Made by a program: the position numbers and the translations under genes. 31,134 nt of DNA from a virus: positions 1 through 31,134 of the IMG/VR virus record IMGVR_UViG_3300042345_000296; one strand, written 5' to 3'. The notes under the pieces were generated by a model, which worked only from the letters and a program-made list of their open reading frames with translations, was not told where the DNA came from and searched no databases. Positions 2,646 through 26,660 of this stretch are shown here, piece by piece; the first letter of the stretch is position 1, and the number at the start of each line of letters is the position of its first letter.

Positions 2646-4958
2646 ATGAAAATAAATGTAATAAAAAGGTCTGGAAAGACAGAACCACTCGCCGTTGAAA
2701 AATGGCAACAACAAGTAGCAAAAGTATGTAATGGAATAGCAGACATCTCTCAGTCCATGATTGAGATCAAAGCACAGCCCCACTTTTATGACGGTATAAC
2801 CACAAGAACTATTGATGAGATCACTCTACGCGCCATAGTAGACCTTATCGATATCGAACATAATCCAGATGTAGGACATACTAATTATCAATATGTTGCT
2901 GGTAAGCAACGTCTTAGCATGTTACGTAAAGATGTCTATGGGCAGTATAATCCTCCACACTTGTTTCAGATAGTAAAAAAGAACATAGAGTCCGGACTCT
3001 ATACCAGCGAATTACTTGATTGGTATAGTGAAGATGATTGGAATAAGATGGAAGAATTCATCGATCATGAGAAAGATGAACAATACAGTTATGCCGCTAT
3101 TGAACAATTGATTGAGAAATATCTTGTACGCAACCGTGCTACAAAAGAGATTTATGAGACTCCCCAAGTTCGCTATATGGTCGCTGCCGCGACTGTGATG
3201 CACAAAGAAGATAAGAGTCAAAGACTAAAATATGTAAAGGAATACTATAATGCTTCTAGTGATGGTTTGTTCACTCTTGCTACTCCTGTACTCGCTGGCC
3301 TCGGAACACCGACCAAACAGTTTAGTTCTTGCGTTCTTATCCGTAGTGATGATGACCTTGACAGCATTTTTGCATCAGGTGAGATGATGGCTAAGTATGC
3401 TAGCAAACGCGCTGGCATTGGCCTTGAGATAGGTAGATTGCGCCCATTAGGTAGTCCTATACGCGGTGGCGAAGTTATGCACACGGGAATGATACCTTTC
3501 TTGAAGAAGTGGTTCGGAGATTTACGCAGTTGTTCACAAGGAGGTATTAGAAATGCAAGTGCTACAGTATTTTATCCCATTTGGCATTATCAGTTTGATG
3601 ATCTTATTGTTCTTAAGAACAATCAAGGAACCGAAGAAACCCGAGTCCGTCATATGGATTATGGGGTTGTGCTTAGTAGTTTCTTCTGGAGACGATTCAA
3701 AAACAGAGAAAACATAACATTTTTTGACCCCAACGAAGTTCCAGACTTATACGAAGCATTCTATTCAGATTGCGCGAAGTTTGAAGAACTTTACGTCAAA
3801 TATGAGAAACGTAAAGATTTACGCAAGAAAACCATGAATGCTGAAGATGTGTTCAAGGGTGGCATATTAAAAGAAAGAACTGACACGGGACGTATCTATT
3901 TGGTATTCATAGATAATGTCATGAACCAAGGGCCGTTCGACCCGGAATACCATACAATTTATCAAAGTAACCTTTGCTGTGAAATTCTGCTTCCTACTAA
4001 ATCTTTTAAGCGTCTTGACGATCATAACGGTCGAATTGCACTTTGCACTCTGGGGTCCATTAACTGGGGCGCATTCAGAAACCCTGAAGATATGCGTAGA
4101 GCTTGCCGCGTTCTACAGCGTAGCCTATGCAACATACTGGACTACCAAGATTTCTTAAGCATACAAAGTAAACTAAGCAATGATGAGATTCAACCATTAG
4201 GCATTGGTGTAACTAATCTAGCATACTGGCATGCCAAACGCGGAATGCGATATGGTGAGAAAGATAGTTTGCAAGAAGTTAAGACTTGGATGGAACATCA
4301 GGCATTTTATCTCACAGAAGCAACAGTTGAACTTGCTAAAGAGCGCGGCAAGTGTGTAGATAGTGACAAGACACGTTATGGTCAAGGTAAGTTTCCATGG
4401 GAGTTACGTGCTAAAGGCGTGAATGAACTTGCTAATTTCACCCCTGAACTCGACTGGGAATCGTTGAGAAAGGAAATGAAACAACATGGGGTACGAAACG
4501 CAACACTTATGGCCATTGCTCCTGTTGAGTCTAGTTCTGTGGTTATTAATAGTACTAATGGTATTGAGATGCCTATGTCACTTATCTCAGTTAAGGAGAG
4601 CAAGGCTGGATCTTTTACACAAGTTGTACCCGAATATCAAAAGTTAAAAAATAAATATGAGTTGATGTGGGAACAGAAAGATTGTTTAGGTTATATCAAG
4701 ACCTCAGCAGTATTGGCAGCATACGTAGATCAAAGTATATCAACAAACACATTCTACAATCCCGCACATTTTACAGATCGCAAAGTTCCTACTACGTTGA
4801 TAGCAAAGAATTTAATGCTGGCTCATCAATATGGATTGAAGACTTTCTATTACAGCCTCATCAATAAGGCTGGGTCTAGAGTTGTAGAAGAAAGCCATGA
4901 AGTTGTTAAACAAGAAGTATTTGAAGAAGATGGCGATTGCGAGTCTTGCAAACTTTAA
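2646..4958 (+). CDS. nrdA: Ribonucleoside-diphosphate reductase class Ia, alpha subunit
   Basis: 770 residues, normal length for NrdA. It reduces NDPs to dNDPs in the cytoplasm together with NrdB, supplying dNTPs for phage replication. An ATP-cone lies at residues 1-90 (INVIKRSGKTEPLAVEKW), the allosteric activity domain. Active-site residues: Cys229 in FSSCVLI, the thiyl-radical site Asn442-Leu-Cys444 and Glu446 in SNLCCEILLPT, and the C-terminal redox pair Cys765/Cys768 (CESCKL) that is re-reduced by glutaredoxin. The Tyr-Tyr radical relay is present in TFYYSLINKAG. Next come iscU, nrdB and grx, all on the same strand with short gaps. The residue after the radical Cys is a second Cys (E. 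coli has Leu). Confidence 0.97.
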   Translation: MKINVIKRSGKTEPLAVEKWQQQVAKVCNGIADISQSMIEIKAQPHFYDGITTRTIDEITLRAIVDLIDIEHNPDVGHTNYQYVAGKQRLSMLRKDVYGQYNPPHLFQIVKKNIESGLYTSELLDWYSEDDWNKMEEFIDHEKDEQYSYAAIEQLIEKYLVRNRATKEIYETPQVRYMVAAATVMHKEDKSQRLKYVKEYYNASSDGLFTLATPVLAGLGTPTKQFSSCVLIRSDDDLDSIFASGEMMAKYASKRAGIGLEIGRLRPLGSPIRGGEVMHTGMIPFLKKWFGDLRSCSQGGIRNASATVFYPIWHYQFDDLIVLKNNQGTEETRVRHMDYGVVLSSFFWRRFKNRENITFFDPNEVPDLYEAFYSDCAKFEELYVKYEKRKDLRKKTMNAEDVFKGGILKERTDTGRIYLVFIDNVMNQGPFDPEYHTIYQSNLCCEILLPTKSFKRLDDHNGRIALCTLGSINWGAFRNPEDMRRACRVLQRSLCNILDYQDFLSIQSKLSNDEIQPLGIGVTNLAYWHAKRGMRYGEKDSLQEVKTWMEHQAFYLTEATVELAKERGKCVDSDKTRYGQGKFPWELRAKGVNELANFTPELDWESLRKEMKQHGVRNATLMAIAPVESSSVVINSTNGIEMPMSLISVKESKAGSFTQVVPEYQKLKNKYELMWEQKDCLGYIKTSAVLAAYVDQSISTNTFYNPAHFTDRKVPTTLIAKNLMLAHQYGLKTFYYSLINKAGSRVVEESHEVVKQEVFEEDGDCESCKL

Positions 4959-9226: not shown

Positions 9227-11497
9227 ATGGCTATGACACCACCACCAGAAGGCTTTGATTCATATCTTGATGGCATATTGCCACCTGATCAGGCTATATT
9301 AGCCGGCGCCTTTGCGTACACTATGCAACAGGTTAGAAATATAGATAAAGTTCCTGCAACTGACTTTGCTAAAGTAGTATACAGCATGGAGAACGCTTCA
9401 GTAGGACTACCGCAAATAAACGGTAGCGTTGTTGATAATTTTCAGATACCTACAAATAAACCATTAGCCGACAACGGCACTAGAAAAGAAGCGTTGGGCG
9501 CGGGCCCGCAAGGCACTTATACCATGAGCAATTTCTTTGGTGCTATGAGTGGTCTTCCTTATCCTTGGGTAAGAATGACACAGTTGATCAAAGATACAGA
9601 AACATTTAAGTTGAGAAATACATATCAAGAAATGTTTCTAGCAGTTACATGGCAAGAAGCATCGATGGACATCTTGCAACCAGATTATTATAAAATTGCA
9701 AAACCTTATGTGGCTCCTACAGTAACACCTAACAATACTAACCCTGATTATCAACCTGACGGTACTGTGAAGACCGCAGGATCATTTACAGTAGGTTGGG
9801 AGTTCACTATTACTACTGTAGGCACTACTGATTTTACTTTGATAGGCGCCGCAAGTAATACAGTTGGGGTGACTTTTGTTGCTACCGGCGCCGGCGCAGG
9901 TGACGGTACTGCGACCCCGGTCGTTAACTTAAATCAATATGTAAATCCTACTACAGGCGCAGAAACAAAAAGCCCTTCATATTATAGTGACGGTGGTGAG
10001 CGCGAGTATTATGACTGGTATTATACAGTACAATGTATGCAAATTGAAGATGGCGGCGGATATGGAAGAGGATCTGCACCTCCGCCTAAAGTACAAGTCG
10101 CCATACGTTTTCCAAATGGATCATATGATACTGTTAGAAACATAAATGTAGGCACTGTGCCAAATCCGATTTGGACTTCTCCTACTAGAGCCAATGTGAC
10201 TACAGTACAAGGTACTAATCCACAGGACTGTGCATCGATAGAACGTAAGTCATATGGTAGAGTGACTGCAAGAATAAACAATGGCGGAGCATACTTGTGG
10301 CTACCACTAGACCCGCAACAGAAAGATATATATGGCAGACCTTGGGAAGATAAGACAGGTCAAGATACAGTGTTGTATGTTGATGGCAACCCGGTCGCTA
10401 ATCCTCCACCTACACCAGTCTACCCGCCGAGACCAGAACAAGAGATAAGAGGTACATCATTGTCGGATCCTGGCATGATGCCTATAGAAACTATAACGAT
10501 TGAATATCCGCCTATACAGCCTTTACCTGTACAGGCAAACGGCAATAAAGCAGTTGATGGTGTTAACACACAAGGAAGGGTCACTTGTAGATTTGGACTT
10601 ATGCCTAACCCACCTGCTACAGTTTTCTGGACTAGCCCTGGTAATAGTGTGACTCAAGGTTATATCAATCAAGCGAACATAGAGATTCAAACGGTTATCG
10701 CACCTACAACCCCCTATTATCAAGAATTGTACAACTTGTGGGAAATTTTAGGCATTAATATAAAATTAGAGCAACGTTCACGTTATATCGCACTTGCCCC
10801 GGTACCCGTGCCTTGGGACACAAGATATGCAGATATACCTGTGTCATTGAACGGTTTCGTTGATAGCATACCTGAATTTGCTCAACAAACTGAACCAAAC
10901 ATGGCAGCACAGACTTTAGAAAACATCAGCAATGTCACTACACCAGGCGGCCAAAGCGTAGTAGCGCAGATGAGACAAGAGAGAAATCAGACTAGACTAG
11001 CAGAGATAGGCATAGAGTTAGATAACGGTATGGGCAAAAAACTACCACCTAGAGAGCAAACAAGGTGGATGGTCAACGGCACACTACCTACAGCAATAAC
11101 AGGTATACCTGGCGCTACTGGAGCAGACATAGACACACCGATATATGTCATACCATCCTATCCTACTATAACTGTACCTATAACTTATTGGGATTGTGTA
11201 GATAATACATTAAAGATCGTCACTAACTTAGCACCAGGAACTATAAGACCTATACTAGAAGGAGAGGGATGTCCTATAGTGGGCCCAGAAATACCAGTAG
11301 GTCCTGGACCCGAATTCCCGCCCCCGGGGAATCCGTTTGATCCAGGCGGAAATAATGGATCAAATCCGGGAGGTGAAAAACCGCCCGCTAATACTAATAG
11401 AAATACTACTAGTACAACACTGCGTCCAAGCACATATTCTGTGCAAGATGCTATAGATAGGGTAATATCGTGCAACTGCGACTGCTGGATAGAATGA
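9227..11497 (+). CDS. Large virion structural protein with inserted VGTTDFTLIG-type module
   Basis: 756 residues. Residues about 184-230 carry the module FTITTVGTTDFTLIGAASN followed by GVTFVATGAGAGDGTA, a short beta module seen, as I recall, in many environmental phage structural proteins. Around it the protein is strand-rich and proline-rich; the region near residues 500-600 (YYQELYNLWEILGINIKLEQ) is helical. The tail from about residue 690 is Pro/Gly/Asn low complexity and the end is CNCDCWIE, a short Cys-rich finish. It starts one base after the previous stop and is the last gene before a roughly 95-nt gap. Function is inferred from composition and neighbours only. Confidence 0.7.
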   Translation: MAMTPPPEGFDSYLDGILPPDQAILAGAFAYTMQQVRNIDKVPATDFAKVVYSMENASVGLPQINGSVVDNFQIPTNKPLADNGTRKEALGAGPQGTYTMSNFFGAMSGLPYPWVRMTQLIKDTETFKLRNTYQEMFLAVTWQEASMDILQPDYYKIAKPYVAPTVTPNNTNPDYQPDGTVKTAGSFTVGWEFTITTVGTTDFTLIGAASNTVGVTFVATGAGAGDGTATPVVNLNQYVNPTTGAETKSPSYYSDGGEREYYDWYYTVQCMQIEDGGGYGRGSAPPPKVQVAIRFPNGSYDTVRNINVGTVPNPIWTSPTRANVTTVQGTNPQDCASIERKSYGRVTARINNGGAYLWLPLDPQQKDIYGRPWEDKTGQDTVLYVDGNPVANPPPTPVYPPRPEQEIRGTSLSDPGMMPIETITIEYPPIQPLPVQANGNKAVDGVNTQGRVTCRFGLMPNPPATVFWTSPGNSVTQGYINQANIEIQTVIAPTTPYYQELYNLWEILGINIKLEQRSRYIALAPVPVPWDTRYADIPVSLNGFVDSIPEFAQQTEPNMAAQTLENISNVTTPGGQSVVAQMRQERNQTRLAEIGIELDNGMGKKLPPREQTRWMVNGTLPTAITGIPGATGADIDTPIYVIPSYPTITVPITYWDCVDNTLKIVTNLAPGTIRPILEGEGCPIVGPEIPVGPGPEFPPPGNPFDPGGNNGSNPGGEKPPANTNRNTTSTTLRPSTYSVQDAIDRVISCNCDCWIE

Positions 11498-16120: not shown

Positions 16121-16653
16121 ATGGATTAAGAAATTGGGTAGAAATTATCAAAGATAGCATCCCTGACCATAGTAAAGATATAAGATTAAATCTTGACGCA
16201 GTAATTAATCGTAGCCTGTTGAGCAAAGAAGATACACATGCAGTCGCATTAACAAGCGCACTTGCGGCAGGCAATGGAGAACTAGCGTTTGCGATCATGA
16301 CTTCAGGAGAGTTGGATGAATTTCCTAAAGAAATGGAAGCCGCAAAAACAGCAGCGAGCCTAATGGGAATGAATAACGTATGGTATCCATATGTCGAGAT
16401 GACACAGGATCCCGAACTCAAAGGCTTACCTGCAGGATTGCGTATGAATGCATACGCAACACACGGTGGTGTATCAAAGAAGCAGTTTGAGATGTATGCA
16501 CTAGCCGCTAGCGCAATAGGTAAATGTCATTTTTGTGTTAAGAACCACTATGATGTTCTTAAGAAGGAAGGAATGACTACACCAGAACTACATCACGTAG
16601 GTAAAATCGCTGCCGTGATTAATGCCATTAGCAAAGTAGCGCCAGATTTATAA
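16117..16653 (+). CDS. AhpD-like alkylhydroperoxidase (carboxymuconolactone decarboxylase family)
   Basis: 178 residues. It has the AhpD/CMD motif GKCHFCVKNHYDVL with Cys137 and Cys140 as the redox pair and His144 as base. MGMNNVWYPYVEM and LRMNAYATHGGV are typical of the bacterial AhpD-like family. In mycobacteria AhpD links AhpC to NADH reductants; here it shares a transcript with ahpC, so a similar reducing role is a sound inference. The N-terminus (IPDHSKDIRLNLDAVINRS) also matches betaproteobacterial AhpD-like proteins from memory. Its end overlaps the minus-strand gene by 6 bases. Confidence 0.9.
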   Translation: MNGLRNWVEIIKDSIPDHSKDIRLNLDAVINRSLLSKEDTHAVALTSALAAGNGELAFAIMTSGELDEFPKEMEAAKTAASLMGMNNVWYPYVEMTQDPELKGLPAGLRMNAYATHGGVSKKQFEMYALAASAIGKCHFCVKNHYDVLKKEGMTTPELHHVGKIAAVINAISKVAPDL

Positions 16654-17845: not shown

Positions 17846-18088
17846 ACTAGTGTGAAATTGAGGGAACGAGGTCCTCACAGCGCACTTTAAACATGCTGTA
17901 AACGGGCGGACAGTATACATGAAAGGGTTGGCGATAACTTCCCGAGTAAGACTACTGACTAGGGCATGACCCTAGTATAGCAAAGGAAACTTTGCTATTC
18001 TATAAGCACATTCGTTAATGCCATCAGGCTCTGCAACTCGCTTGGGTACTCCGTGTTAATTTTGAATGTGCTTATAGAATAGTAAATA
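17846..18088 (+). ncRNA. Structured RNA candidate with 19-bp perfect stem
   Basis: About 240 nt with no ORF, starting just after a promoter and ending before tRNA-Thr. Hairpins seen: ACTAGGG/CCCTAGT (17958-17976), ATAGCAAAG with a GAAA tetraloop and CTTTGCTAT (17977-17998), and a 19-bp perfect stem, 17995-18013 with 18064-18082, enclosing about 50 nt. The GAAA hairpin shares four bases with the long stem, so the two either compete or stack end to end. No match to RNase P, tmRNA or 6S RNA core sequences is apparent. GC content is visibly higher than the coding parts. Function unknown. Confidence 0.6.
17995..18082. repeat. 19-bp perfect inverted repeat
   Basis: CTATTCTATAAGCACATTC at 17995-18013 and its exact complement GAATGTGCTTATAGAATAG at 18064-18082, with a 50-nt loop. 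Pairing can extend 4 bp outwards with one G-U. No T-run follows, so it is not a plain terminator. Confidence 0.95.
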
Positions 18089-18095
18089 GTTCGTT

Positions 18096-18260: not shown

Positions 18261-18299
18261 ATATTCTGTAGGTAAGATATGTTGAATAGGACATATCAC

Positions 18300-18340
18300 G
18301 GTAGTTCGCGGTGTGTGGGGCGACTATCTCTTTTTAATTT
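18300..18340 (+). terminator. Intrinsic terminator between tRNA-Asn and tRNA-Glu
   Basis: GGTAG-T-TCGC pairs with GCGA-CTATC (18300-18309 with 18320-18328, one bulge), then CTCTTTTTAATTTT. A smaller GATATGT/ACATATC hairpin (18276-18297) precedes it. It would end a Thr-Asn transcript. Confidence 0.6.
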
Positions 18341-18341
18341 T

Positions 18342-18581: not shown

Positions 18582-18769
18582 GATTATATCATCCTGTCCT
18601 TTGATGTAGTAGGGAATGATTATACGGTAAAACATCAGTACAGAGTGCGAGGTTGTCTGTTGGTAGCATGAATATACTATGAGGTGAACAGAATAGTCTA
18701 TGTTGCGCGGGGGCATAGATGAGATCAAACTCTATTGTTGTTTACGGTGGAGTTAGCCCGCGCCTTAAC
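18582..18769 (+). ncRNA. Structured RNA candidate with predicted pseudoknot
   Basis: 188 nt without a gene. CTATG/CATAG (18698-18702 with 18714-18718) encloses the left arm of a GC-rich stem GCGCGGG/CCCGCGC (18705-18711 with 18757-18763). The two stems interleave, so they form an H-type pseudoknot if both fold. It lies between tRNA-Gln and a gene that has its own TAAATA box, so it may be either a separate RNA or a long leader. Confidence 0.45.
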
Positions 18770-18775
18770 TAAATA
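18770..18775 (+). promoter_or_regulatory. TAAATA box 6 nt before an ATG
   Basis: Sequence CTTAACTAAATATTCTCTATG; nearly the same string (CTTAACTAAATATCTGTATG) occurs on the minus strand before the FkbH-like gene. This points to a shared late-promoter/start signal. Confidence 0.5.
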
Positions 18776-18781
18776 TTCTCT

Positions 18782-19381
18782 ATGAACAATTACTTTTTTA
18801 AAATAGCAAAATTTGATATCGATGAAACTCTGTTATACAACGAGTGGTTCCACGTAGCCAACAAATACGATGCGTTTAACAGGACTAAAAAGTTTATAGA
18901 AGATATCAATGGGGTAAAAGGTTACAAGACCTATCATAGGTTGCGAATCAACTATCCCGATAATATGAGTAGTGATATGGATCCAGTTATGATACAAGGG
19001 TATAACACTGAAGTAGAGGCTACTGGATATAGCATCGATAATATCATTGATGATTTTAAAGGTTCGTATACTGAAAAGATTGCTAGACAAGTGCATGATT
19101 TCTTGCTTGAAAAATATCCGGCATATATCGTCACTAATATCAAGTATCATTCGATATCACCCAAATCATCAATGACGTTGCATATTGATGATAGCACTAG
19201 ACCTAGATTTTTTCTTTCTGCTAGCGTACCCGAAGGTTGTTTCATGCAAATAAACAATGAGAAGATTCCTATGCATGAGACCGGCGCATTGTACAGAATG
19301 ATATGCAAAGTGCTACATAATCCATTAAATGAAAGTGATGGTTATCGTGTTTCTATGGTTTTTGATATAGCACATAAGTAA
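18782..19381 (+). CDS. Putative Fe(II)/2-oxoglutarate hydroxylase (Asp/Asn hydroxylase-like)
   Basis: 199 residues. The C-terminal half has SMTLHIDDSTRPRFFLSASV with His134 and Asp136, then MHETGALYRMICKVLHNPLN with His179 and Arg189 (YRVSMVFDI). This resembles the HxD...H metal triad and 2-oxoglutarate-binding Arg of the Asp/Asn beta-hydroxylase cupin family. The N-terminal half is unassigned. The substrate, if any, is unknown: a host protein or surface component are both possible. A second protein with the same layout is at 28936. A TAAATA box lies 6 nt before the ATG. Confidence 0.6.
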   Translation: MNNYFFKIAKFDIDETLLYNEWFHVANKYDAFNRTKKFIEDINGVKGYKTYHRLRINYPDNMSSDMDPVMIQGYNTEVEATGYSIDNIIDDFKGSYTEKIARQVHDFLLEKYPAYIVTNIKYHSISPKSSMTLHIDDSTRPRFFLSASVPEGCFMQINNEKIPMHETGALYRMICKVLHNPLNESDGYRVSMVFDIAHK

Positions 19382-19384
19382 GTG

Positions 19385-19566
19385 CTAAATAAGTTTTGTG
19401 AGAGTCCGAAAGCAAAGAGTTTAACCAACTACCTGGCTATCAAGGATGTATCCGACCTTTTGTTATATTCGATCCCGGTTATTAGGGTGTGCTGTGGTGG
19501 CACTGGAAACAAAAGGGGGCATATCTAGCCCTTAAACGGACGATAGCACCCTCACCCCGAATTAAC
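19385..19566 (+). ncRNA. Structured RNA candidate
   Basis: About 180 nt without a gene between the hydroxylase gene and tRNA-Ala. AGGGT-GT-GCT (19484-19493) pairs with AGC-ACCCT (19545-19552) around an inner GGGC/GCCC hairpin (19517-19531). TAAATA occurs at its left edge (19385-19390), and an AGTCCGAAAGCAAAGAG stretch follows. No homolog recognised; RNA function inferred only from pairing and lack of ORFs. Confidence 0.45.
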
Positions 19567-20201: not shown

Positions 20202-20230
20202 TTGACAACGGGACATTTCGGCACTATAAT
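20202..20230 (+). promoter_or_regulatory. Perfect consensus sigma70 promoter
   Basis: TTGACA (20202-20207), 17-bp spacer, TATAAT (20225-20230), between tRNA-fMet and tRNA-Trp. ACGGGAC in the spacer (20208-20214) has its complement GTCCCGT at 20254-20260. A CTGTTGT/ACAACAG hairpin sits just upstream, and a T-run follows at 20276-20283. Confidence 0.9.
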
Positions 20231-20285: not shown

Positions 20286-20361
20286 ATACCGGTAGCTCAA
20301 CTGGCAGAGTAGCGGTCTCCAAAACCGCAGGTTGGGGGTTCGATTCCCTCCCGGTATGCCA
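20286..20361 (+). tRNA. tRNA-Trp(CCA)
   Basis: Acceptor ATACCGG/CCGGTAT, anticodon loop CTCCAAA between GCGGT and ACCGC, G discriminator, CCA encoded. Confidence 0.96.
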
Positions 20362-20367
20362 AATTAT

Positions 20368-20445
20368 GTGTCGGTGGCAGAGCGGCCCATTGCAACGGAT
20401 TGCAAATCCGTAAAACCGTCAGTTCAAATCTGACCCGACACTCCA
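20368..20445 (+). tRNA. tRNA-Cys(GCA)
   Basis: Acceptor GTGTCGG/CCGACAC, anticodon loop TTGCAAA between ACGGA and TCCGT, T discriminator as required for Cys, CCA encoded. The D loop and 6-nt variable loop are slightly long. Confidence 0.94.
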
Positions 20446-20984
20446 AGTTTCATCGGAAAATGGCTGTGACCACCATAACCAGCCCAGTGCTTTTGTACGG
20501 CGCAATTCTAGACAAGCCAGAGAGAGCAAACGATAGCAGGGAGATTGCTATCCATAACGATGAGCCCTACGTTCCGGGTGTCTCCGGATAGTGTGACCCA
20601 CACGATGAGAAGTAGTGTGACAACTACGGGTGGTAGTCTTTAAACCAAAAGGCCGCTGGCAGTGCGAGAACGGTCCCTGTCGGGAAGCGGGTGGAAGGAG
20701 TGTGTGATGGGTATGATAGCGTCATATCTTGATACTCTATAATTACCGCCGGGGGACGCAGAGCATTTTAAAATATATTAAGGGTTACCTGATCCGTTAG
20801 GTACTTTAAGAGAGGAGCACAGGGGCCGCCCTACGCAATCTTAGAGTACAGGAAGCGTATGAGTACATTGTACCGAACGTGACGGGCAGTTAGGCAGTAA
20901 TGACGAAACTGAAAATATGAGAGACGGTCTCATATAGCAAGTCTAGTTCCCTTAGTGTATTTTAAAATGCTAAATTAAATATGC
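20446..20984 (+). ncRNA. Giant structured RNA candidate (539 nt) within the tRNA array
   Basis: No ORF is credible here, yet the stretch is GC-richer than the coding parts and full of perfect hairpins: GATAGCA/TGCTATC (20532-20552), GTGTG/CACAC (20591-20603), GTAGT/ACTAC (20612-20627), TACCT/AGGTA (20786-20803), TACGC/GCGTA (20832-20859) and ATATGAGA/TCTCATAT (20915-20935). A 14-bp perfect long-range stem (20762-20775 with 20958-20971) closes a 210-nt domain at its 3' side. Size, folding density and position among tRNAs resemble the GOLLD and ROOL giant phage RNAs, but no conserved core is recognised, so this may be a member or a new family. Confidence 0.65.
20762..20971. repeat. 14-bp perfect long-range inverted repeat
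   Basis: AGCATTTTAAAATA at 20762-20775 is the exact complement of TATTTTAAAATGCT at 20958-20971. It closes the 3' domain of the 539-nt block; between the arms lie at least three smaller hairpins. Confidence 0.93.
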
Positions 20985-21069
20985 GGAGATGAAGCATCAA
21001 TGGTGATGCAGTGGACTGTAAATCCGCCGCCTTCGGGCACGACTGGTTCGATCCCAGTAATCTCCACCA
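20985..21069 (+). tRNA. tRNA-Tyr(GTA)
   Basis: Class II tRNA with a long variable arm (CGCCTTCGGGCAC), anticodon loop CTGTAAA between GTGGA and TCCGC, acceptor GGAGAT/ATCTCC with a G-A mismatch at 7-66, CCA encoded. It begins 13 nt after the long-range stem of the structured block. Confidence 0.93.
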
Positions 21070-21396: not shown

Positions 21397-21425
21397 TTGA
21401 CAAATAGATTCTTTGATAGTATAAT
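21397..21425 (+). promoter_or_regulatory. Perfect consensus sigma70 promoter
   Basis: TTGACA (21397-21402), 17-bp spacer, TATAAT (21420-21425). It drives tRNA-Ser, starting 11 nt downstream of the -10 box, so transcription would start almost at the tRNA 5' end. Confidence 0.9.
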
Positions 21426-21527: not shown

Positions 21528-21745
21528 GACCCCGGTTTACACTTTTACGTTATATAAAGTGGGTGATTGTCGCAACCATACAGACACGGTGAGATCATTA
21601 TCGACCGCAAGGCCTGATTTTACGGGCGACTTGAGACACATGATCGGGCAGAAGTGAAACTGACCTAGATGCAAATATCAACGGACAGGGTAACAACTCA
21701 GTTTGGGGCAGAACAGGGAACTGTAGCCAAACACTTTAGAATTTT
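21528..21745 (+). ncRNA. Structured RNA candidate between tRNA-Ser and tRNA-Asp
   Basis: 218 nt, no ORF. CACTTT/AAAGTG (21540-21561), GATCAT/ATGATC (21593-21645) enclosing a smaller pairing, and GTTTGG/CCAAAC (21701-21732) enclosing ACAG-GGAA-CTGT. Co-transcribed with tRNA-Ser from the 21397 promoter if no terminator intervenes; none is seen. No family recognised. Confidence 0.5.
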
Positions 21746-25526: not shown

Positions 25527-26660
25527 ATGAAGATTCTGCGTAAGATAGTCAACATGGATAGTATGCTTTATGATGAGCATAGCCATGACATTTTTGAGAA
25601 ACATGATCATTTCTTTCAACTAGATGATCGCTGGGAATATGTCGATAATATAGAAGACGCAGACATAGTTCCTATATTACCAGCCGGAAAACCTAAACTT
25701 GATAAATGCTCACTTAGATTGAGAGACGATCAAGTACTATGTATGTTGATGTACTATTTGATAGATGATCACCATGATATATCATTTTTTGAAAATGTGC
25801 TAGAATACGCGGGGCATATAGCCAAAAATGTATTGATAGTGCATAAAAATAGTTTATTTAAAAATCATGTTCACGATAACATCGTGCATTATGATTCTAT
25901 GTTTAGTATCACTAAGATGTGTTTTACCGAATATGAAAACTATGATTTTACAGACCGTATTTGGAATCTATATTCACATAATGATACATATCGTTTACCG
26001 GATATAAAAAAGAATCTAACTAAAAAATTTATGTGTCCTACGTATGTCTATCAACCATATACACATGCTAGGATGATCTATAGAGCAAAAGTTAGAGAAA
26101 TCATAGAACCATATAAAGAATATGGTTATGTGAGTACAGATAAAGTCAAATTGATGCCTAATAGTCCGGTGACTGACCTCATGCTGAATAATATGATGAA
26201 TAGTACTACTATACAATGGTATCCGGTCAGCGATGAATTATATAACTCATCCTGTATCTCAGTTGTATGCGAGACTATAACGGGTTTATGCAATGAGGAT
26301 AAAAAATATAATAAAGTTCAATGTGTCACAGAGAAAACACTAGAACCATTGGCAAAAGGTAATTTCATATTACCATTTGGATATCCCGGATTGATACAAG
26401 ATGTATTAGCATATGGGTTCAAATTACCAGAATGGATAGATTATTCATATGACGATTTACATGACATAGATAAACGATTTAACAAGTTCAAAACGATATT
26501 AGATAATTTATTAGGTAACATCTCTGTAGACAGATTACAAAAGTTTTGTGAAAGAGATATAGATATATTAGAACACAATAAACGGGTATTTTACTCTAGA
26601 CCTTATGATAATTTATATGATATAATCTTGAGTAAATACAAAGAATTATTGCCCAGGTGA
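25527..26660 (+). CDS. Glycosyltransferase-like protein
   Basis: 377 residues, not firmly assigned. The C-terminal part contains CVTEKTLEPLAKGNFILPFG followed by YPGLIQDVLAYGFKLPEW and DYSYDDLHDIDKRFNKF. A TEKTxxP motif followed by a glycine-rich turn resembles the acceptor/donor region of exostosin- and fucosyltransferase-like glycosyltransferases common in marine phages. The N-terminal half is a Rossmann-like mixed domain with a run of aspartates and histidines. Its stop TGA lies inside tRNA-Leu(TAG), at the 10-base overlap. The role may be glycan decoration of DNA, virion or host surface. Confidence 0.6.
   Translation: MKILRKIVNMDSMLYDEHSHDIFEKHDHFFQLDDRWEYVDNIEDADIVPILPAGKPKLDKCSLRLRDDQVLCMLMYYLIDDHHDISFFENVLEYAGHIAKNVLIVHKNSLFKNHVHDNIVHYDSMFSITKMCFTEYENYDFTDRIWNLYSHNDTYRLPDIKKNLTKKFMCPTYVYQPYTHARMIYRAKVREIIEPYKEYGYVSTDKVKLMPNSPVTDLMLNNMMNSTTIQWYPVSDELYNSSCISVVCETITGLCNEDKKYNKVQCVTEKTLEPLAKGNFILPFGYPGLIQDVLAYGFKLPEWIDYSYDDLHDIDKRFNKFKTILDNLLGNISVDRLQKFCERDIDILEHNKRVFYSRPYDNLYDIILSKYKELLPR

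Follow-up and report, generated by a model that had tools for sequence, protein, structure and literature searches.

RNA E, a new family of covarying, pseudoknotted RNAs, and its predicted neighbours D and F in the tRNA array of an uncultivated phage

Comparative analysis of the window, a linear IMG/VR fragment of 31,134 bases, resolves the 539 nt at 20446-20984, the gap between tRNA-Cys and tRNA-Tyr, into three predicted and independently conserved RNAs, D, E and F, which lie head to tail and replace the single 539-nt RNA proposed in an earlier note on this DNA. The middle one, RNA E, represents a previously uncatalogued, intricately folded family whose members were found on considerably more than a hundred DNA fragments of uncultivated phages, almost always next to tRNA genes. 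RNAs E and F are conserved independently of each other and contain covarying pairs; in RNA E these include tertiary pairs, and RNA E is usually single-copy and keeps its strand and spacing with respect to tRNAs. Large structured RNAs beside phage tRNAs, such as GOLLD and ROOL, are a standing puzzle. RNA E belongs to the same kind but is much smaller and usually single-copy, and its fold, with three tertiary contacts, is well determined; chemical probing, structure determination and pull-down of partners should therefore be straightforward.

Division of the gap between tRNA-Cys and tRNA-Tyr

A total of 25 tRNAs were identified in the window using ARAGORN and one more, tRNA-Tyr, was found by the Rfam tRNA model alone. 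The location of the 539 nt inside the tRNA array, as described in the earlier note, is confirmed by the two flanking tRNAs. The features of this part of the array are as follows:

20202-20230, plus strand: promoter-like site TTGACA-17-TATAAT, 12 of 12 positions of the sigma-70 consensus (a consensus match only, not proof of function)
20286-20361, plus strand: tRNA-Trp (CCA), at which the presumed transcription unit begins
20368-20445, plus strand: tRNA-Cys (GCA), directly followed by RNA D
20446-20567, plus strand: RNA D, 122 nt, with the motif AATTCTAGACAA..AGCAAA; 13 loci, 9 of them full length
20568-20765, plus strand: RNA E, 198 nt, widespread new family with a covarying structure; 180 loci
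20766 (about)-20971, plus strand: RNA F; 77 loci, 13 of 22 pairs compensatory, single-sequence fold z -5.1
20985-21066, plus strand: tRNA-Tyr (anticodon read as GTA), 36 bits with the Rfam tRNA model, missed by ARAGORN

The promoter-like site thus lies upstream of tRNA-Trp, tRNA-Cys, D, E, F and tRNA-Tyr, and a second perfect match to the sigma-70 consensus is found at 21397-21425, ahead of tRNA-Ser and a further RNA, G. When compared with dinucleotide shuffles, the 539 nt folded better than 100 out of 100 (z -3.8). The earlier reading that 20446-20984 holds no credible open reading frame was confirmed, and in the homologues of E and F insertions and deletions are not multiples of three and no reading frame is kept.

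Relatives were retrieved using the 756-aa protein encoded at 9227-11497 of the window as bait, which identified two loci, L013 and L016, both keeping the order Cys-RNA-Tyr. The gap between the two tRNAs is 223 nt long in L016 and encompasses only the middle part (E), and is 317 nt long in L013, where it encompasses the first and middle parts (D and E). Iterated nhmmer searches over all fetched loci were used to separate D, E and F, which adjoin one another in the window as well as in L052, L116 and other close relatives; in most relatives RNA F is not beside RNA E, being found elsewhere in the array, often ahead of tRNA-Glu. Since the pieces are carried apart in relatives, the proposal of one 539-nt RNA was abandoned. 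The 14-bp perfect stem reported in the earlier note is exact, with AGCATTTTAAAATA at 20762-20775 pairing with TATTTTAAAATGCT at 20958-20971 and closing 210 nt. It coincides with the closing helix of RNA F (20762-20784 with 20949-20971) and, because F usually lies apart from E, is best regarded as F's own helix, lengthened in the window by four bases from the end of E. Proteins encoded at 18782-19381 and 25527-26660 yielded no relatives when used as bait. The HAD-like protein yielded L002-L009, among which only L004 was informative, carrying RNA G and a D-like motif, and a 16-nt match in L010 was judged to be due to chance.

RNA F is a second covarying family of predicted RNAs. Its 22-pair structure contains 105 compensatory cells versus 35 in shuffles, and 93% of cells are paired versus 32-54% after sliding the partners, so that the covariation called for in the earlier note exceeds both controls. 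RNA D has a closing stem CATCG:CGATG, replaced by GCCG:CGGC in L013, and its copies are too few and too little diverse for firm covariation; D may be a variant within a more extensive family organised around its motif. An HMM of the D-like RNA of L117 was set aside as it drifted onto other array sequence. The D motif also occurs in L117 (about 3510-3700), L112, L114 and L115, in different RNAs with long closing stems.

Fold and distribution of RNA E

The dense hairpins read by eye in the earlier note proved only partly real, and the single-sequence minimum-energy fold of RNA E (z -1.7 in the window) differs from the structure indicated by covariation; it was dropped in favour of the latter. 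RNAalifold applied to 54 RNA E sequences yielded 38 pairs, 28 of them with compensatory changes, and changes on both sides of a pair were found in 330 cells versus 94 in shuffles. Sliding the partners by 1-3 columns in this 54-sequence alignment reduced the paired cells from 96% to 35-46%. A total of 91 copies were then aligned using the covariance model R1 (alignment A4) and further covarying columns were sought. The strongest covarying columns corresponded to the predicted helices, and others led to tertiary contacts, which were checked copy by copy:

20580-20621, plus strand: kissing loops, P1 loop 20580-20582 with P3 loop 20619-20621, identified by covariation
20596-20631, plus strand: pseudoknot 1, P2 loop ACCC 20596-20599 with GGGU 20628-20631 in the strand after P3, six complementary 4-mer pairs
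20632-20646, plus strand: pseudoknot 2, GGU 20632-20634 with ACC 20644-20646 in the P4 loop, identified by covariation

The full structure encompasses 48 pairs and consists of hairpins P1-P5, the P1-P3 kissing loop, the two pseudoknots and one long arm. Compensatory changes are found in 39 of the 48 pairs, with 724 compensatory cells versus 219 in shuffles, a control which ignores relatedness, and sliding the partners reduced the paired cells from 97% to 35-52%; RNA E thus covaries beyond the shuffled and the slid controls. In alignment A4 the main helices were made to fit the model, and the counts of tertiary pairs come from the same data in which these pairs were discovered, caveats that are answered in part by the slide control and by the many different pair types. 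The kissing loops pair as GUC:GAC, AUC:GAU, AACG:CGUU, AUAAU:AUUAU, GUAG:CUAC and others, pseudoknot 1 as ACCC:GGGU, GUCC:GGAC, ACUC:GAGU, ACAC:GUGU, AUCC:GGAU and ACGC:GCGU, and pseudoknot 2 as GGU:ACC, with CCU:AGG in the L016 clade and UUCC:GGAA in L167. Tertiary partners change together in several lineages. Many unpaired bases are invariant, and both the internal loops and the tertiary contacts show strong conservation across 54-95% identity.

The spread of RNA E was assessed with a degenerate pattern of its core, GAAGYGGRTGGARG followed after a short gap by GTGTGATGG, which matched 86 IMG/VR stretches versus about 0.15 expected (a rough estimate); a second, looser pattern gave at least 120 matches. 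HMM searches placed RNA E in 180 fetched loci, some of them the same or near-identical contigs, and 79 full-length copies are less than 95% identical to each other (pairwise identity 54-95%, alignment A2). RNA E is the most widespread of the array elements found here, and the contigs bearing it reach 525 kb. It is single-copy in 28 of the 30 contigs searched end to end, the exceptions being a 525-kb contig with two copies and another with a weak second match. The two copies of the former (L048, 524,565 bases), at 424195-424392 on the plus strand and 119584-119792 on the minus strand, differ from each other and reflect either a true duplication or the assembly of two phages. The loose pattern matched 28 times in 84,980 bacterial and archaeal genomes, and only one of these matches, L214, was RNA E according to the HMM and the covariance model. 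L214 is a 5.9-kb contig binned as Bacteroidota, which also carries the array elements A, B, C and I described below, and probably represents phage DNA assigned to a Bacteroidota genome during binning.

With respect to tRNAs, RNA E starts 0-3 nt past the end of a tRNA in 99 of 177 loci (within 5 nt in 102), has a tRNA within 20 nt downstream in 59 and a tRNA within 1 kb in 164; some of the 13 loci with no tRNA within 1 kb are cut at contig ends. No upstream neighbour within 1 kb lies on the opposite strand in the 177 loci. The identity of the upstream tRNA varies among loci, and RNA E is therefore a member of the array in its own right, not tied to one tRNA.

Relation to known RNAs and proposed role

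No Rfam 15 family came near its cut-off in the window, even when matches up to an E-value of 10 were listed, in keeping with the earlier note, which had recognised no family core; diverse RNA E homologues likewise gave no known family at or near the gathering score. A blastn search of the 539 nt against GenBank phages (50,697 records) gave no match, nor did divergent copies of E and F against the same records, and the phages bearing these RNAs have no isolate yet in GenBank. No description of E or F was found in the literature searched, in which subscription journals and bioRxiv were partly covered, and an earlier description is possible. Between the two options left by the earlier note, a new class is supported by the strong covariation, and a divergent GOLLD or ROOL is disfavoured by the lack of a match to either model in the window at loose thresholds.

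Several known families were considered and rejected as identities for these RNAs. The T-box sequence binds the 3' end of tRNA, its UGGN bulge pairing with the NCCA end, and the conserved GGGUGGU(ACC) of RNA E resembles it. However, in RNA E this strand is engaged in two covarying internal pairings, its GGGU part with the P2 loop and the following GGU with that of P4, varying with those partners, and is not a free UGGN bulge; no Rfam T-box model matched. Genes for phage tmRNA (RF01850, RF04321), another stable RNA, also lie within the tRNA arrays of related phages (L050, L084), but E and F have neither a tRNA-like domain nor a tag reading frame, and no tmRNA match was found in the window. A group I intron had no Rfam support for any of the three, and neither did a hammerhead or RNase P RNA, which were suggested by short motifs only.

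The GOLLD model (RF02032) gave no match in the window at an E-value of 10, the same search scoring 200 bits for L067 and 189 bits for L047, and true GOLLD was found as a separate element in the contigs of four relatives (L047, L067, L157 and L177), about 2-3.5 kb from RNA E. A GOLLD-like organisation as one RNA of about 800 nt with a conserved 3' part and a variable 5' part was rejected, as the units measure 122, 198 and about 206 nt and are found separately; the location near phage tRNA genes agrees with GOLLD, but is common to many RNAs and not diagnostic. GOLLD and RNA E are both structured phage RNAs in or near tRNA islands, and some arrays have both, but they are unrelated in sequence and fold, and E is about 200 nt long whereas GOLLD often exceeds 800 nt (PMC12286853). 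ROOL (RF03087) had no match in the window or in eleven relatives, sets that contained no positive control. It resembles E in being a structured phage RNA with pseudoknots, often near tRNA islands (PMC12286853), but its model has about 575 positions versus 199 for E. On comparative sequence grounds, E and F are new RNA families that join the ornate phage RNAs already known from tRNA islands and belong to neither GOLLD nor ROOL.

D, E and F are probably three separate RNA genes of a phage tRNA operon, whose stable, trans-acting products would be co-transcribed with the tRNAs and cut out by tRNA processing. Transcription probably begins at the promoter-like site ahead of tRNA-Trp and continues past Trp, Cys, D, E, F and Tyr, and host tRNA-processing nucleases would cut the precursor. 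Because RNA E is placed in the array like a tRNA gene, we infer that it is matured by tRNA enzymes: its 5' end would be formed near the CCA end of the upstream tRNA (after D in the case of the window), and the 3' end would result from a cut at a downstream tRNA or from trimming, after which RNA E would fold alone into a compact particle in which P1-P5 are locked by the kissing loop and the two pseudoknots, with the long arm in addition. The low copy number and tightly held tertiary fold favour a trans-acting RNA over a spacer or processing signal, and the other stable RNAs of related arrays (GOLLD, tmRNA, group I intron) count in favour of this explanation. As to what RNA E does, a tentative suggestion is that it is a stable structural RNA made during infection, which may act by binding a host protein or the translation apparatus, either singly or as an oligomer made of RNA only; the same is suspected for GOLLD and ROOL. 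This role is favoured by analogy with GOLLD and ROOL, cage-forming RNAs encoded close to tRNA islands, of which ROOL reaches the abundance of 16S rRNA in one strain and GOLLD increases during lysis (PMC12286853), and with phage ICP1, whose most abundant transcript is non-coding (PMC7567579).

It is unlikely that E, F and the other array RNAs instead act in counter-defence, as decoys or inhibitors of host anti-phage enzymes such as tRNA-cutting nucleases or sensors of phage RNA, with the arrays serving counter-defence too. Their location in phage tRNA arrays, their patchy presence and rearranged order among phages and their nature as small, tightly folded, single-copy RNAs would fit, but the loops and tertiary contacts of E are conserved (54-95% identity) and, outside the apical arm, lack the divergence of an arms race; no link to a defence target was found. 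There is little probability that E and F serve only as segments of the tRNA precursor, steering transcription by antitermination or the processing of neighbouring tRNAs, with no function in trans. They abut tRNAs directly, and antiterminator RNAs are known in other phages; however, with usually one E per contig most tRNAs are without it, its position in the array and its flanking tRNAs vary, and the element before the first tRNA is A, not E. A ribozyme, for example self-cleaving or acting on tRNA, is improbable for RNA E: the compact pseudoknotted fold and many invariant unpaired bases are compatible with one, but no Rfam 15 ribozyme family matched, conserved bases are equally expected of a protein- or RNA-binding fold and there is no cleavage site to point to. 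Finally, one giant 539-nt RNA, the divergent GOLLD or ROOL of the earlier note, is highly improbable: its length, its tRNA neighbourhood and the contiguity of D, E and F here and in L052 and L116 are as expected, but the three are found separately in other phages, a separation of E from F that already contradicts it, neither the GOLLD nor the ROOL model has a match in the window and RNA E co-occurs with true GOLLD as a distinct element.

Other RNAs of the array and of related arrays

Further conserved elements were identified in the window:

17862-18094, plus strand: element A, conserved and RNA-like; about 61 loci, covariation above shuffles
18261-18341, plus strand: element I, conserved non-coding spacer between tRNA-Asn and tRNA-Glu; 11 loci
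18582-18781, plus strand: RNA B; 17 loci, few diverse copies
19382-19566, plus strand: RNA C; 17 loci, 20 of 43 pairs with compensatory changes
21528-21745, plus strand: RNA G; 59 loci, covariation above shuffles, behind the promoter-like site at 21397-21425 and tRNA-Ser

Covariation is well above shuffles for A, C and G, and B, like D, has too few diverse copies. RNAs B, C and G are non-coding and lie between tRNAs. Element A precedes the first tRNA in the array of the window and in many others, downstream of a promoter-like site matching 11 of 12 consensus positions; it looks like an array leader, which may act as an antiterminator or form a structured RNA in its own right. RNA G of L004 is 74% identical over 217 nt, the neighbouring protein being just 55% identical. 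The presence of the array RNAs is patchy among phages and their order is rearranged. A single array can thus hold several independent RNA families missed by both protein-based annotation and Rfam. A fair possibility is that the arrays are RNA islands which, besides the tRNAs, encode no fewer than eight uncatalogued and mutually unrelated elements (A, B, C, D, E, F, G and I, with hints of more), most of which would act in trans, giving the infecting phage a layer of RNA machines of its own making.

Between positions 16648 and 31134 of the window, unusual phage genes are interspersed with the tRNAs. Judged from their sequences, these genes encode a beta-hydroxylase-like protein, a HAD/FkbH-like protein, an AMP-binding-like enzyme and a sulfotransferase-like protein; those tested had no match in PHROGs. 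tmRNA was found in E- and F-bearing phage arrays at L050 6082-6501 (minus strand) and L084 4087-4531 (plus strand), and the match to a betaproteobacterial model hints at betaproteobacterial hosts. A group I intron above the Rfam cut-off lies inside the tRNA array of L158 (6439-6638). A conserved non-coding stretch, element K, is present between E and tRNA-Cys at L025 1425-1668 and in about 95 other loci, and by eye consists of two more elements, each with a long closing stem, TATTGAAGCACA..TGTGTTTCAATA and TTTTATAGTCAAGCA..TGCTTGACTATAAAA.
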